From a virus: DNA of 20,661 nucleotides. Of this stretch, positions 1 through 19,796 are shown one piece after another (position 1 is the first letter of the stretch; the number at the start of each line of letters is the position of its first letter). The notes below the pieces were generated by a model that worked only from the letters and a program-made list of their open reading frames with translations, had not been told where the DNA came from and searched no databases. Where the stretch lies: positions 1-20,661 of IMG/VR virus record IMGVR_UViG_3300030117_005275. One strand, 5' to 3'. The translations under genes were made by a program, and so were the position numbers.

Positions 1-299
1 TAAAATACATCGATTCCCATATTCTGCGCATTAGAAGCGATTTGTGCGGCCATATAAGACTTGCCAGTAGCTTCTAGGCCGGCAATTTCTACAATCTTTC
101 CAACAGGAATTCCAGCTAAACGACCTCGACAAATAATAGAATCAAGCCACCTAGAACCAGTTGGAATCCATTCCTCAACCTCCGTAGGGTTATCTTCATT
201 TAAATTAAACGCAACTTCGCATCCAGCCTGCTTATTAATTAAAGCACGCATATCACTCATCGATAGTTTACCAGTAGTCACTTTTCTCGCTCTTGCCAT
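1..299 (-). CDS. RecA/UvsX-like recombinase, N-terminal 99 residues (cut by window edge)
   Basis: This is the strand-exchange recombinase of the phage recombination/repair system, which forms ATP-dependent filaments on ssDNA and would work with the ssDNA-binding protein encoded just upstream. The visible part starts MARARKVTTG and has the RecA-type Walker A GLEATGKS at residues 74-81 (G74, G79, K80, S81), preceded by PTGSRWLDSII (46-56), which matches the 'tGi..LD.al' segment before the RecA core. The ATG at 299 is well supported by GGAGG on the minus strand (304-308). The rest of the ATPase core, including Walker B and the DNA-binding loops, lies outside the window. Whether it is closer to bacterial RecA or to T4 UvsX cannot be settled from 99 residues. 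The Walker A is nearer to RecA GPESSGKT than to the divergent UvsX loop. Confidence 0.88.
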   Translation of the reverse strand, partial: MARARKVTTGKLSMSDMRALINKQAGCEVAFNLNEDNPTEVEEWIPTGSRWLDSIICRGRLAGIPVGKIVEIAGLEATGKSYMAAQIASNAQNMGIDVF

Positions 300-350: not shown

Positions 351-1106
351 CTATGCGTTCATTAGCTCCTTGAACGCTTGATCAACAGAATTTCCTCCAT
401 TGTTATTATAGTGAACAGATTCCGAAGATGAAGACTCTGCATCTACATCCTTAGACATAAATTCGTCAAGAATTACCTGGACCTCTTGTGTCGACTTACG
501 CTCAAAAAGCTGTTCAACGTCAGGAATAGCATCTAGAGTTTCAGTAATTGCCTCTTCGCTTTCCATCATCGGAGATGTTCTACGACGAGGTTGTAGCTTT
601 GTCTGTGGGAATGAGGCCCCAGGAGGCTTTCCATAGCTGAGTACAATATCAGTTCCCTCTTCTGGGTCGGTGATGTCGCCGTAGTCAGGGTTCAGCACGA
701 GGCTAAGAAGTGTCTCGTAGGCCATCTTGCCATAACCCCACCAGCGAGGCCCCTCGTTCTCCTCACCTCGCACCATCACAGGGCTAAAGAATCGCTGCCT
801 TGCAAAGAGACTCTTCGCCATCCTCTTGGATGCGTCGTCATTATTATTTGACCCCTCTCGCCACAGATTTGAAGCAAACTCACAAATTGGACAGTCGTCA
901 CCATAGTTACGCTTTGGGCAAACAATTCCACCCTTAGCTACGTTATAGTGAAAATACACCTCCTTGAAAGGGTCTCCATCCTCTGTCGGGATGATTCTAA
1001 TAGTCTGGTCTCCGTCCTCTGGTCGCCAGAAAGCACTCTTACTTGAATCGCCACGGTTCTGTACTGCGGCAAGCTTCTCTCGCATCTTATCTAGATTGAT
1101 TCCCAT
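351..1106 (-). CDS. gp32-like zinc-containing single-stranded DNA-binding protein
   Basis: This protein (251 aa) coats ssDNA during replication and recombination, as T4 gp32 does. The N-terminal basic segment is followed by an OB-fold core (about 25-170). That core carries a gp32-type zinc site with H53, C63, C72 and C75 (H-x9-C-x8-C-x2-C), and aromatic residues (Y52, Y54, F101, F106-F107, W122-W123, Y125) suited to base stacking. The C-terminal region from about 215 is Ser/Asp/Glu/Asn-rich and ends in a short helix-like SVDQAFKELMNA, the kind of tail gp32 proteins use to recruit replication partners. The start at 1106 has AAGGAG eight bases upstream. It lies downstream of the polymerase and FtsZ-like genes and upstream of the recombinase, forming a replication/recombination block. 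Confidence 0.87.
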   Translation of the reverse strand: MGINLDKMREKLAAVQNRGDSSKSAFWRPEDGDQTIRIIPTEDGDPFKEVYFHYNVAKGGIVCPKRNYGDDCPICEFASNLWREGSNNNDDASKRMAKSLFARQRFFSPVMVRGEENEGPRWWGYGKMAYETLLSLVLNPDYGDITDPEEGTDIVLSYGKPPGASFPQTKLQPRRRTSPMMESEEAITETLDAIPDVEQLFERKSTQEVQVILDEFMSKDVDAESSSSESVHYNNNGGNSVDQAFKELMNA

Positions 1107-1154: not shown

Positions 1155-1988
1155 TTAATCTAATTGTTGTATTGTTGAAGAGTATGCTACGCAATAAACG
1201 TAGTCTTCTTCGTATTGAGTAGAGTATATTCCATATGATACCTTGGTGTCAACAGAATTGTCCTTAACTTGAGAAATTATTTTCTTGCGAATGTCGCTCG
1301 ACTCTCTCAACTTGTTCTCATTGATGGCGTAATAATAGACCTTTTCCCTAATGTTGTCAACAGGAAAAAATAGTTTCTCTTCCCCTGTTTGAAAATCAAC
1401 AATTCCATATGTGCATAGCCTACTAACTTCATGCGGTGATGAAATATTATCCATAATACTCTCAGAGCGGTCAAACACATTTATCATATTAATTGTAGAA
1501 ATAAGCAGATCATTCAATTTCTCATGAAAACCTATCACTGGAATGTCTCCCAAGATATCTTCAAGTTGATTGTTGTAGACCAACGCTACTTTATTAAAAA
1601 CCCCAGATCTAGCATATTGTTGAAACACATTTATGGTTAAGCGCTGTTGCATCTTATCCATCTCACCTAGTAGTTCTGGATCTGAACAAACACATAGTAT
1701 TGAGGTGTCGTGTGATTTTATTTGTTCAAGAATCCTCAAAGAAGCACCGGAAACAAAGCCAGAAGCTGCAACAACAAATAAAACTTTGCCCTGCAATGGT
1801 TTGAAAAACCTCTTAAGACTACCAATTGATTGTTCAAACTCTTCAGGAGTGCTGGCTTTTTTTATACCATATGTTCTTGGGGTTCTTTTGAGGCCAACGT
1901 CCATCTTGTAAATATCATACTGGGGGTATTGAGAGAATTTATCAGCTATTCTACAGCCCGCTGCGCCTAATCCAATTATTGAATCCAT
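1155..1988 (-). CDS. Divergent FtsZ/tubulin-superfamily protein, probably without normal GTPase chemistry
   Basis: This 277-aa protein follows the element order of FtsZ/tubulin. Beta-1 and loop T1 are SIIGLGAAGCRIADKF (3-18), like FtsZ 'IkVIGVGGaGgNAV'. The strand and T4-loop region KVLFVVAASGFVSGASL (68-84) lies where FtsZ has 'vfitaGmGGGTGTGAAPV', but the signature is reduced to ASGFVSG. VALVYNNQLEDI (134-145) resembles 'lIvIpNdkLl', and GFHEKLNDLLISTINMI (153-169) resembles the helix leading to T7. The T7 region IMDNISSPHEV (178-188) lacks the NxDxxD pattern. A C-terminal domain ends in VSYGIYSTQYEEDYVYCVAYSST, like the FtsZ 'iifGt..d..l.d.v.vtviaTg' strands. The length is close to phage PhuZ (about 315 aa) without a tail. 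Its start overlaps the polymerase gene by 13 nt. A Rossmann dinucleotide-binding protein is the main alternative, because GLGAAG also fits GxGxxG. The function is unknown. Confidence 0.62.
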   Translation of the reverse strand: MDSIIGLGAAGCRIADKFSQYPQYDIYKMDVGLKRTPRTYGIKKASTPEEFEQSIGSLKRFFKPLQGKVLFVVAASGFVSGASLRILEQIKSHDTSILCVCSDPELLGEMDKMQQRLTINVFQQYARSGVFNKVALVYNNQLEDILGDIPVIGFHEKLNDLLISTINMINVFDRSESIMDNISSPHEVSRLCTYGIVDFQTGEEKLFFPVDNIREKVYYYAINENKLRESSDIRKKIISQVKDNSVDTKVSYGIYSTQYEEDYVYCVAYSSTIQQLD

Positions 1989-3169
1989 TCTCTCATTTCT
2001 CCATAATTCTTGCCATAGTTTACATTAACTTTAAAATTTCCTAAAGGCGTATTTGTAAAATATTCAACCAAAACATTGATTAGCTTGCACTCAACATCGG
2101 TAAGGTCCAAGACTACTTCATCGTGCACACAAAATGCAACAAAAGAGTCCTTATCCTGCAGGTATTTGTTCAACTTAATCATTTGTCTTAACACAACATC
2201 CGAACAGGTACTTTGAATTAGGTAACTCATGGCATGATAATTATCTGCTGAAATGGATCTGTTAAAGGGGTTTGTCACGCTATTGTTTTGATAATACTCT
2301 TCTAAGACCTTTTCTCTACTTTTGCCGTAAATTCTATGAGAAAGGTAATCCTTGGATTCCATATTATAAAGCCACGCAAAAAACCTTTCCTTTACCTCCT
2401 CTCTACTACCAAGTTCATTATAAGCATTAATGCGATTCCACTCATGCACATCTACATCTGGCTGACTAATTCCTGCGAGTGCTAGAAAAGTTCTTAGTTC
2501 AGCGCCATTGAAATCTAGAGATACAAACCAATCGTTTGTTGGCTTAATAATTTTTCTATATCTTTTATCCATTGTAAGTATAGGAAAACTGTTCTTCTTA
2601 GTGGTCAACCTGCCTGTCTTTGTTCCAAAAATATTATAATTACAAGAATGTGAGATGTGGCCCAGCTTATGAGCAAATTTTCTAGTTCTCTCCTCGTGCA
2701 TTAGGTCACGCAATTCAGTTTTATCAATATTCAAATTCCTAAACTTCATGTCATGCGTAATTTTTGTTAGGTTTACCAAAAAATCGTAGTTTTCTGGTTT
2801 GTGATAATTGTTTATCACATACTCAGTAATCTTATTGCGAACAGAGCAGTATTGCTTTAGAAACTTTTGAGGGACTAAGTCAAAAAAGCAGTTTTTAGAC
2901 AAATCTATTTTAGACTCTTTAAAGGCTCTAAGAAACGCTTTAAGACGATTGTTGATGGAGTCCCACTCATCACCCAAGTGCCTGGGGCATGCCTCGTCCA
3001 AGGGCCTCTTAGCATACAGAAATGCATATTCAATACCAGCGTAGTCCTCTAGAAACGAAGAATAAGACCATGTACGAGTAAGATTGTTAGGGACGTTATC
3101 AAAATGCAGTTCTCCATTGAGAAACACACCGACACACTCCCTTTTATTATCGAGCGTTTGGAAAATCAT
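1976..3169 (-). CDS. Short family A DNA polymerase (PolA-type palm/fingers/thumb, no exonuclease domain)
   Basis: This is a template-directed DNA polymerase of the Pol I family, 397 aa. The landmarks are in order: TKTGRLTT (183-190, E. coli TxTGRLSS); motif A SLDFNGAELR with D219 and E224; DVHEWN (240-245, Pol I 'DIHrxTA'); the O-helix R256-x3-K260-x3-F264-x3-Y268, matching E. coli R754, K758, F762 and Y766; YLIQSTCSDVV (316-326, 'pIQGtAADii'); and motif C VHDE (348-351, H349, D350). All catalytic residues are therefore present. The N-terminal ~130 residues are too short and lack the DxE/DxxxD motifs of a 3'-5' exonuclease. The fingers are compressed relative to Pol I, with about 95 residues from motif A to the IQ motif. 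The start codon overlaps the upstream stop as TAATG, so translation is probably coupled. It may be the replicative enzyme if the exonuclease is encoded elsewhere. Confidence 0.9.
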   Translation of the reverse strand: MIFQTLDNKRECVGVFLNGELHFDNVPNNLTRTWSYSSFLEDYAGIEYAFLYAKRPLDEACPRHLGDEWDSINNRLKAFLRAFKESKIDLSKNCFFDLVPQKFLKQYCSVRNKITEYVINNYHKPENYDFLVNLTKITHDMKFRNLNIDKTELRDLMHEERTRKFAHKLGHISHSCNYNIFGTKTGRLTTKKNSFPILTMDKRYRKIIKPTNDWFVSLDFNGAELRTFLALAGISQPDVDVHEWNRINAYNELGSREEVKERFFAWLYNMESKDYLSHRIYGKSREKVLEEYYQNNSVTNPFNRSISADNYHAMSYLIQSTCSDVVLRQMIKLNKYLQDKDSFVAFCVHDEVVLDLTDVECKLINVLVEYFTNTPLGNFKVNVNYGKNYGEMREWIQ

Positions 3170-4389
3170 TAATATGTTGGTTTAGTTTTTATTTTAGTGT
3201 TAGTAAAGTTAATTTTTTCAACTGCTTTAGCGAAAGAGCCGTTGTAGTTATCAAATCCGCGAATAGAAAAGTTAACGTATGATTGCATCGCTGTAGTCCC
3301 ATTGACAGATTGAACATCCCTTGCATTGCGCTTAATTTCATTTAAAGAAGCAGCACTTCCGGGACTTCCTTGCTCAATGTATCTAATATCAATATACATG
3401 TCAACCCAATTTTTATCAGGATACTTTCTATCAAACTCTTGAACTGAGATGGGTGCTCTACACGTCCTGCTTCTAGTTGCAAGCCCACTTACAATAACAT
3501 TTTGAGGGCTTCGAGCTATAAATTTATTATACGTAATATAAGATAGTTTTTGTAAATTTTGAATATCTCTTTCGTATGTTTTTAAAAAATAACCAGCGAG
3601 TATAATTTCGTCGTTATTAAAACCATACCTTGTAGAGTATCGATGCATTGCTGGGCTTGCAATGTCTGCAACTAAAACCCACGGTACATTCTTTGTTATA
3701 GAAAATCCATGCTTTTCTGCTGCTAACTTAAAAAAAGAAAAATTTGGGCTGTTTATAAAATCTTCTTTTGCAGAATCATCAGAGGCGTCTAAATCAGCAA
3801 CGTGAATTGTTAGGCCAGTATTCAATAGATTGCAGAAGCCGCTAGTTATAAATGAATTTAAAGTTATAGGAACATTATTGCTTATTTCTAATAAAAAAGA
3901 AGAAAATAAATTAAAAAAAGAAGAAAAGTCATTAATCTGCTCTCTTCTCTTTTCATTTAAATAAGTTTCTATAAATATGTTGCTAATTTTTTCATTGTAA
4001 AGTTTAAAATTGTTTATAGGATCAATAAAACCTTTGTGAGCCTCAAGTTTATAAAGGTATGGATCTTGAGAATTAAGCTTTCCAGAAAAAGCTGCTTTGT
4101 TTGTTTCTAAAACAAGGCCCTCAAATGCATCTGATACAAAATTAATAGTTTTAATTTTTTTTCTTGGGTCTTTTCTAGACTTTATAGTTGTTAAATTAGC
4201 AGGGTTTACAGTAATAATTTCATGTGTCTTATTTATTCTACCATATAGAGACCTTTCAGCAAAATTAAAATCCTTTACAGCATTATTGTTGGAACCCAGC
4301 TCCGAAACGTTGCCTAAAACTGAATATTTTAGCCTTTCAAAGAATTGTTTTTTTATATTTTGTCCGTTTTTTCCTTGAAAATTAGCCAT
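3169..4389 (-). CDS. Unrecognised 406-aa protein, probably a virion/baseplate component
   Basis: I do not recognise this family. The protein is rich in Asn, Phe, Ile and Lys, has no signal peptide or membrane segment, and shows no clear catalytic motif. It reads as a mixed alpha/beta globular protein. Segments likely to be conserved are the central LVADIASPAMHRYSTRYG (about 241-258) and the aromatic VDMYIDIRYIEQGSPGS (about 328-344). Its start at 4389 has AGGA about eight bases upstream, and it begins 19 nt after the large hub-type gene. Its stop is fused to the polymerase start (TAATG). Position argues for a tail or baseplate protein closing the structural operon, while the coupling leaves open a role beside the polymerase. 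Both are inference. Confidence 0.5.
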   Translation of the reverse strand: MANFQGKNGQNIKKQFFERLKYSVLGNVSELGSNNNAVKDFNFAERSLYGRINKTHEIITVNPANLTTIKSRKDPRKKIKTINFVSDAFEGLVLETNKAAFSGKLNSQDPYLYKLEAHKGFIDPINNFKLYNEKISNIFIETYLNEKRREQINDFSSFFNLFSSFLLEISNNVPITLNSFITSGFCNLLNTGLTIHVADLDASDDSAKEDFINSPNFSFFKLAAEKHGFSITKNVPWVLVADIASPAMHRYSTRYGFNNDEIILAGYFLKTYERDIQNLQKLSYITYNKFIARSPQNVIVSGLATRSRTCRAPISVQEFDRKYPDKNWVDMYIDIRYIEQGSPGSAASLNEIKRNARDVQSVNGTTAMQSYVNFSIRGFDNYNGSFAKAVEKINFTNTKIKTKPTY

Positions 4390-19172: not shown

Positions 19173-19796
19173 TCACATTTTTGGGTTAAACCCTAAGTAG
19201 AAATTACAAATGTATTTATCATTAGATTTTGGAGCCATGCCTTTATGCATGTGAGTGAAGTATGGAGGAAAGATAACCATCTTTCCCTTCTCTGGTTTAA
19301 TCTTCAAGTTCTGATGAAAGAAGCATGTCTCGCCGCCCTCGGAGACATCATTTAAATATACCATTGCGACGAGAACTCTTCTAGCTTGGATTGGAAGTAG
19401 TCCGTAGTCTTGGTGCCAAGCATGATAACCTTGATCTGGACAGCTGTATCTTTTAAGTTTTGGCGGCTGTAATAAAGTAAAAGCTTGTCTTACATGCTCC
19501 TCCAGTAAATAATTCTGCTGTCCTTTTGGGCTAATAATATAAGAATTTACGTAATTTGTTGCTGGCCCATATAATAATGTATCGAAATTTTTAAAAAGTT
19601 GCTGGTTGGTCCCATCTGTTTTCCCTGGTAGTAGATCTAAGTCTACGCTATCCTTTTTAGTAATGTTTGATTTATCATTTCCTAGTAACCCAACATGAGC
19701 ATCGCCAGATGCAATGTTGTTTTCCAATATTTGTATCAAGGTATCACAGAGTTGATTTGAAAATGCGTTATGATATTCTTTTATAAAAGTGTCCAT
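19173..19796 (-). CDS. 2-oxoglutarate/Fe(II)-dependent oxygenase, prolyl-4-hydroxylase-like
   Basis: This 207-aa single-domain enzyme would hydroxylate a protein or other substrate using O2 and 2-oxoglutarate. The double-stranded beta-helix motifs are all visible. HxD is in YHAWHQDYG (H128, D130). YLNDVSEGGETCFF (147-160) is the conserved turn. The distal His is in FPPYFTHMHKG (H182), and KYICNFYLGF (194-203) supplies the basic residue for 2OG (K194). The pattern is the one seen in many phage-encoded P4Hc proteins ('FP..wTHtHrG....tKYi.tgw'). The substrate is unknown; the setting among virion genes suggests a structural protein. A near-consensus promoter sits so close to the ATG that the mRNA would be leaderless, and no Shine-Dalgarno is present. 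Confidence 0.87.
   Translation of the reverse strand: MDTFIKEYHNAFSNQLCDTLIQILENNIASGDAHVGLLGNDKSNITKKDSVDLDLLPGKTDGTNQQLFKNFDTLLYGPATNYVNSYIISPKGQQNYLLEEHVRQAFTLLQPPKLKRYSCPDQGYHAWHQDYGLLPIQARRVLVAMVYLNDVSEGGETCFFHQNLKIKPEKGKMVIFPPYFTHMHKGMAPKSNDKYICNFYLGFNPKM

Follow-up and report, generated by a model that had tools for sequence, protein, structure and literature searches.

Tubulin and FtsZ are usually seen as expressions of one idea, the GTP-driven filament. Their T4 loop carries the signature GGGTGTG and their T7 loop an NxDxxD motif with the catalytic acids; in FtsZ, T7 and helix H8 make the lower subunit interface. All members of the superfamily characterized as of 2010 formed filaments (PMC2875224). 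The PhuZ tubulins of nucleus-forming jumbo phages organize phage DNA, and PhuZ of phage RAY keeps both the T4 signature and the aspartate on which its GTP hydrolysis and dynamics depend (PMC10299810). A strongly diverged cellular group, FtsZl1 (Makarova and Koonin, 2010), found with vWA and membrane-linked genes, keeps GGGTG(S/T)G (PMC2875224). The second system relevant here is the divergent family-A polymerase divPolA1, whose palm is intact and whose 3′-5′ exonuclease is inactivated, the catalytic aspartates being replaced. Phages with divPolA1 have genomes of 155–190 kb, possess one more DNA polymerase, and have been reported to carry GroEL; tubulin and FtsZ are not mentioned in the description of divPolA1 (PMC11348598).

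The DNA analyzed here (the window) comprises 20,661 nt of IMG/VR record IMGVR_UViG_3300030117_005275. We use the name TubL for the product of the open reading frame at 1155–1988. GGAG precedes its ATG, and its start sits within the end of the polymerase ORF (1976–3169), so that the two frames overlap by 13 nt. The genes of this region are:

3..299, minus strand, RecA/UvsX-like recombinase, N-terminal part, running off the window (from the translation; start the same as in RecA of the close relative G001, L155:14580-15692)
351..1106, minus strand, gp32-like ssDNA-binding protein, SSB (PF08804, E 6.6e-18; phrog_1192, E 2.6e-25)
1155..1988, minus strand, TubL, predicted degenerate tubulin/FtsZ-fold protein of 277 aa (ORF call, AlphaFold2 model, structural matches)
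1976..3169, minus strand, family-A DNA polymerase, divPolA1-like (PF00476, E 2.5e-13)
3169..4389, minus strand, conserved gene of 406 aa (family 3), directly upstream of the polymerase gene in most relatives

The polymerase family of the window keeps D216 of motif A, R253, K257, F261, and Y265 of the O helix, and H344 and D345 of motif C (A7 numbering), and in Flavobacterium phage immuto it is the divergent PolA that the PolA profile of TubL phages matches (E 6e-17). G001 (161,719 bp) encodes DNA polymerase III alpha and GroEL. The PolA palm residues, the SSB/RecA/exonuclease/DnaB operon, and the second polymerase of G001 mark the neighbor of TubL as divPolA1-type; by analogy with divPolA1 (PMC11348598), its exonuclease is taken to be inactive. 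The role of the divPolA1-like polymerase itself is uncertain because G001 also has DNA polymerase III alpha. The window phage is contractile-tailed, as a reading made earlier from the letters of the window (below, the sequence-only reading) had claimed: a tail sheath was found (PHROG, E 2.4e-62).

With 86 diverse TubL relatives as input, AlphaFold2 gave a model with a pLDDT of 96.4 and a pTM of 0.93 (six close relatives alone gave a pLDDT of 57). When the model was compared with the PDB by Foldseek, the best 50 matches were FtsZ and TubZ only (E 1e-13 to 1e-11). The VIA aligner matched it to CetZ with Z 25.0 (256 of 277 residues, rmsd 2.9), to TubZ with Z 23.9, to FtsZ with Z 23.0, and to beta-tubulin with Z of about 21.9, PhuZ being absent among the VIA matches listed. 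The matches to CetZ, TubZ, FtsZ, and tubulin span residues 1–271 to 1–277. The best-matching predicted viral protein came from an uncultured phage and is annotated as FtsZ (TM-score 0.80 on the query). TubL is thus predicted to have the full two-domain tubulin/FtsZ fold, with its elements in tubulin order, H7 and the C-terminal domain included. The sequence-only reading had proposed this fold and had named a plain Rossmann domain as the outcome that would speak against it; the structural searches did not return one.

Identity of TubL to FtsZ and to relatives with solved structures is 10%–16%. Profile-profile comparison with FtsZ, a check suggested together with the fold, gave a score of 37.7 over 158 columns, with T1, T4, T6, and H7 aligned in order, against at most 25.3 for 60 column shuffles, 18.1 for the reversed profile, and 16.9 for the neighboring polymerase. 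The sequence link between the two families is faint but real. Single-profile searches were less telling. PF00091 had no hit in the window protein and weak hits in 11 of 86 relatives (best E 0.0055); the match in one genome, G003, scores 13.2 bits against a curated cut-off of 33 and spans profile positions 4–37 only, i.e., the first glycine loop, so that by this profile TubL would not be placed among tubulins. TrkA_N was matched about as weakly (best E 0.00023) by a similar number of members, and plain HMM matches are therefore unspecific. Both the TrkA_N matches and the confinement of the Tubulin match to positions 4–37 would be in keeping with a common Rossmann protein of the NAD type, or with a resemblance by chance. 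We find such a reading scarcely credible: the structural matches, at Z 21–25, run through residue 277 and take in the tubulin C-terminal domain, and the fold search contradicts it. Given the spread of the family and the full-length fold, the resemblance of TubL to tubulins is more than chance.

The alignment of 86 sequences and the model place the following elements in TubL:

1953..1973, minus strand, T1 loop, residues 6–12, GLGAAGC (aligned with FtsZ GVGGAGC)
1746..1766, minus strand, T4 equivalent, residues 75–81, ASGFVSG, in the family (G)[SA]Gx[IV]S[GA] (alignment columns)
1605..1622, minus strand, end of H5, residues 123–128, QQYARS, in the family QEYARS (the family's strongest conservation)
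1572..1574, minus strand, N139, counterpart of the guanine-contact Asn of FtsZ T6 (81/86; co-aligned with IPN)
1512..1514, minus strand, N159 in H7, counterpart of the guanine-contacting FtsZ Asp/tubulin Asn (81/86; co-aligned)
1419..1469, minus strand, H7-S7 linker, residues 174–190, at the place of FtsZ T7 and H8 (model and alignment)
1158..1418, minus strand, C-terminal domain, residues 191–277, beta-alpha-beta-beta, with REKxYYY and SYGIYSTxY (within the structural matches)

All the elements singled out by the sequence-only reading are present in the ORF (GLGAAG at residues 6–11, ASGFVSG at 75–81, NNQL at 139–142, SYGIYST at 251–257, and YCVAYSST at 265–272), and the changes that it described in T4 and T7 hold across the family. 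In T1, G6 is conserved in 83, G8 in 86, and G11 in 81 of 86 sequences; judged by the alignment, TubL retains the glycine loop together with the guanine-contact residues of T6 and H7. The T4 equivalent is conserved in a different form (G75 71/86, G77 65/86, I/V79 74/86, S80 79/86, G81 49/86), with a bulky I/V where GGGTGTG would have glycine. Within the linker (about residues 173–190), no position is more than 56% acidic. Positions 182 and 185, the counterparts of two FtsZ aspartates, are acidic in about 1% of sequences and otherwise hydrophobic or proline, and helix H8 is absent from the model. Neither the T4 signature of an active GTPase nor a T7 NxDxxD was recognized in the alignment. Since T4 is degenerate and the catalytic acids of T7 are gone along with H8, FtsZ-type GTP hydrolysis by TubL is improbable, and its lower protofilament face would be unlike that of FtsZ. 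Nucleotide binding and nucleotide-dependent polymerization are possible, because the guanine-contact Asn residues are conserved. The strongest conservation lies at the end of H5 (Q123, R127, and S128 each 86/86, Y125 85/86). In the C-terminal domain, position 215 (E215 in TubL) is acidic in 98% of sequences, Y218 is found in 85/86, and T257 in 81/86. These H5 residues, near-invariant H167, R190, Y218, and the acid at 215 make up the most strictly conserved set, which lies away from the FtsZ catalytic elements.

Could TubL still polymerize in the manner of PhuZ and TubZ, through remodeled interfaces, its filaments positioning or enclosing the phage replication site? The complete fold, the retention of T1, N139, and N159, the uniformly filament-forming superfamily as characterized by 2010 (PMC2875224), and the phage DNA organization by PhuZ tubulins (PMC10299810) all fit; however, T7 and H8 are missing and T4 is altered, so that a GTPase cycle is not expected, and TubL, unlike PhuZ, is tied to a polymerase gene. 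We consider polymerization of this kind unlikely. A different use of the old pocket would be as a sensor of guanine nucleotides (GTP, dGTP, or GDP), or for some unrelated activity, regulating nucleotide supply or the polymerase. Such a function draws on the conserved T1 glycine loop and the two guanine-contact Asn, on the invariant polar residues Q123, R127, and S128 and near-invariant H167, and on the nucleotide-metabolism genes of the near-relative genome G001, but the phosphate contacts of T3/T4 are changed and searches recognized no catalytic motif typical of known enzymes, and we hold it to be quite doubtful.

TubL thus shares with FtsZ, CetZ, and TubZ the full-length two-domain fold (Z 23–25), T1, the guanine-contact Asn positions, and a co-linear profile match, whereas its T4 is reduced, NxDxxD and H8 are absent, the protein is shorter, and the gene belongs to a phage replication operon. 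Like PhuZ, it is a tubulin-fold protein encoded by phages and connected with the replication of their DNA. The relation would be distant and through the fold only. TubL lacks the T4 signature and the aspartate kept by PhuZ of phage RAY, and it is polymerase-coupled in phages of about 160–200 kb. FtsZl1 is likewise strongly diverged, and neither protein was found to have the elements that known filaments require; in contrast to FtsZl1, TubL retains equivalents of T6 and H7 as well as the C-terminal domain, though not T4.

Searches of IMG/VR, with the protein and then with alignments, listed 5, 70, and 80 TubL loci, and the last search confirmed at least 570 relatives. Identity within the family to the window protein is 30%–96%. 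All eight long contigs examined (161–204 kb) carry TubL. The dN/dS between the window gene and its nearest relatives is about 0.05, and TubL is under strong purifying selection. Searched singly, the window protein had no match better than chance in Pfam, in PHROGs, or among the collected phages; tblastn against 50,697 phage records, PhuZ phages included, gave no match at E 10, and sequence searches of the PDB gave chance matches only. A weak tblastn match of FtsZ in Marine virus AG-345-E08 was set aside, the ORF being unrelated and reading like a 2OG-Fe oxygenase. The single match among 84,980 bacterial and archaeal genomes is a phage fragment flanked by runs of N in a WOR-3 MAG (L072, CP070664.1:2245234-2258046). 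We took this seeming cellular homolog as a chimera because the scaffold stretch between the N runs holds the whole phage operon; the public chromosome CP070664.1 is probably a scaffolding chimera. No description of the TubL family was found in the open-access literature searched.

The sequence-only reading had coupled TubL to the polymerase and to the SSB and recombinase genes, and had called for a survey of the neighborhoods of its homologs. The coupling was confirmed in the window and at the loci of relatives. A gene of the polymerase family lies directly upstream at 111 of 148 TubL loci, with overlapping frames in 90 of the 111; 13 more loci have no upstream gene, and the rest have a different gene there. 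Downstream of TubL, the operon continues with SSB (gp32), RecA, 5′-3′ exonuclease, and DnaB. Seen from the polymerase side, TubL lies within 2.5 kb downstream at 75 of 78 testable loci, and two of the three remaining polymerase loci are on contigs carrying TubL elsewhere, behind long inserts (L119, L106). We conclude that the linkage between TubL and the polymerase is near-obligate. When the distance matrices of five operon proteins were compared, TubL and PolA were the most similar pair (r 0.75, partial 0.49); gp32 and RecA gave a comparable partial correlation of 0.54, and adjacency, shared ancestry, and linkage all contribute to such values. divPolA1 was assigned to replication by the same neighborhood argument (PMC11348598).

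These observations also bear on the suggestion, made from the sequence, that TubL caps or poisons host FtsZ and so blocks cell division. A decoy of this kind could profit from a fold similar to that of FtsZ, and, with an upper face like that of FtsZ but no corresponding lower face, it could in principle sit on the end of a filament as a cap. Identity to FtsZ is, however, as low as given above, the gene occupies a near-invariable place between those of the polymerase and SSB under strong constraint, and nothing points to contact with FtsZ. With nothing specific found in its favor, we regard the decoy as highly improbable.

In cultivated sister phages the operon is retained, but the slot of TubL is taken by a small protein unrelated to it. 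In immuto, Microcystis phage Mel-JY01, and the 484-kb LR756508, a conserved protein of about 130–150 aa is encoded between PolA and SSB:

NC_055915.1:1346-1801; PP395634.1:51674-52063; LR756508.1:243784-244170; L291-L370, slot protein, assigned to no family, consensus HRKKESNTLYTINALN

The slot protein is very common, with at least 522 IMG/VR stretches confirmed; of 80 IMG/VR loci listed, 79 have a PolA-like match and none has TubL. The divPolA1 neighborhood of Immutovirus and its relatives thus shares with that of TubL phages the order PolA, slot, SSB, RecA, 5′-3′ exonuclease, DnaB, as well as a second polymerase elsewhere, and differs from it in the occupant of the slot. Immutovirus, Mel-JY01, LR756508, Pelagibacter phage Mosig, and a Bacillus phage had no TubL match. 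The idea that the slot protein of Immutovirus is a detached C-terminal domain of TubL was rejected, as profile comparison, with scores of 12.8 and 18.1, revealed no similarity. The existence of two alternative occupants behind divPolA1 suggests a job tied to the polymerase or its SSB.

Strict conservation, near-invariable linkage to the polymerase, and the alternative occupant of the slot favor a replication role over that of a host-takeover toxin. On balance, we lean toward TubL being a core replication protein, a tubulin-derived, non-dynamic accessory of the divPolA1-like polymerase. Judged by model and alignment, TubL has kept both domains of the fold in full, with part of the guanine pocket, and has lost the T4 signature, the T7 acids, and H8; most likely it has no FtsZ-type GTP cycle. 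It would be made together with the polymerase, on which it probably acts in company with the SSB and RecA of the phage. Most likely it would work as a subunit or a small assembly, binding the polymerase and/or SSB through putative surfaces formed by the conserved QEYARS and REK-YYY, and it may hold or position the polymerase on DNA. That the superfamily members characterized by 2010 all formed filaments counts against an accessory of this kind. More tentatively, we propose that in a large uncultured phage lineage a tubulin-superfamily protein free of a GTPase cycle and of dynamic filaments may serve as a polymerase accessory, and so as a replisome subunit. If this is true, the tubulin fold is usable as a static building block, and an unexpected part is added to phage replisomes. 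TubL would also be a concrete candidate partner for divPolA1, a polymerase type that its 2024 description left without a settled role.

Several further features of these genomes were recorded. The family of the 406-aa gene (window 3169–4389, minus strand) is the second upstream gene at 101 of 148 TubL loci, a linkage nearly equal to that of TubL, but it is fast-evolving; its product had no family match in searches that included Pfam and PHROG HMMs. A few phages (L119/L120/L214, L115, L232) have large ORFs, of 641, 793, and more than 800 aa, inserted precisely at the junction of the PolA and TubL genes. One TubL subclade encodes a protein of 84–91 aa (family 8) between TubL and the SSB gene (L042:6845-7117, L072:6846-7100, and about 30 other loci); its sequence shows several cysteines and, at the N terminus, what looks like a membrane helix, and its gene comes next downstream at 33 loci. 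In the window, a 207-aa ORF (19173–19796, minus strand) looks by eye like a 2-oxoglutarate/Fe(II) oxygenase (HQDYG...GGETCF...GKMVIFPP...H). In the G001 genome (L150-L158), one protein has a match to phrog_1211, “2-aminooxy adenylosuccinate synthetase” (E 3e-72), and there is a protein match to PF00709 (4.6e-86); going by these family matches alone, this is a possible PurZ, i.e., a 2-aminoadenine genome. Finally, the identifier of one TubL locus, L097 (IMGVR_UViG_2786546787_000016), differs in form from the 3300... identifiers of the others; the record may be of genome or single-cell rather than metagenome origin and might reveal a host.
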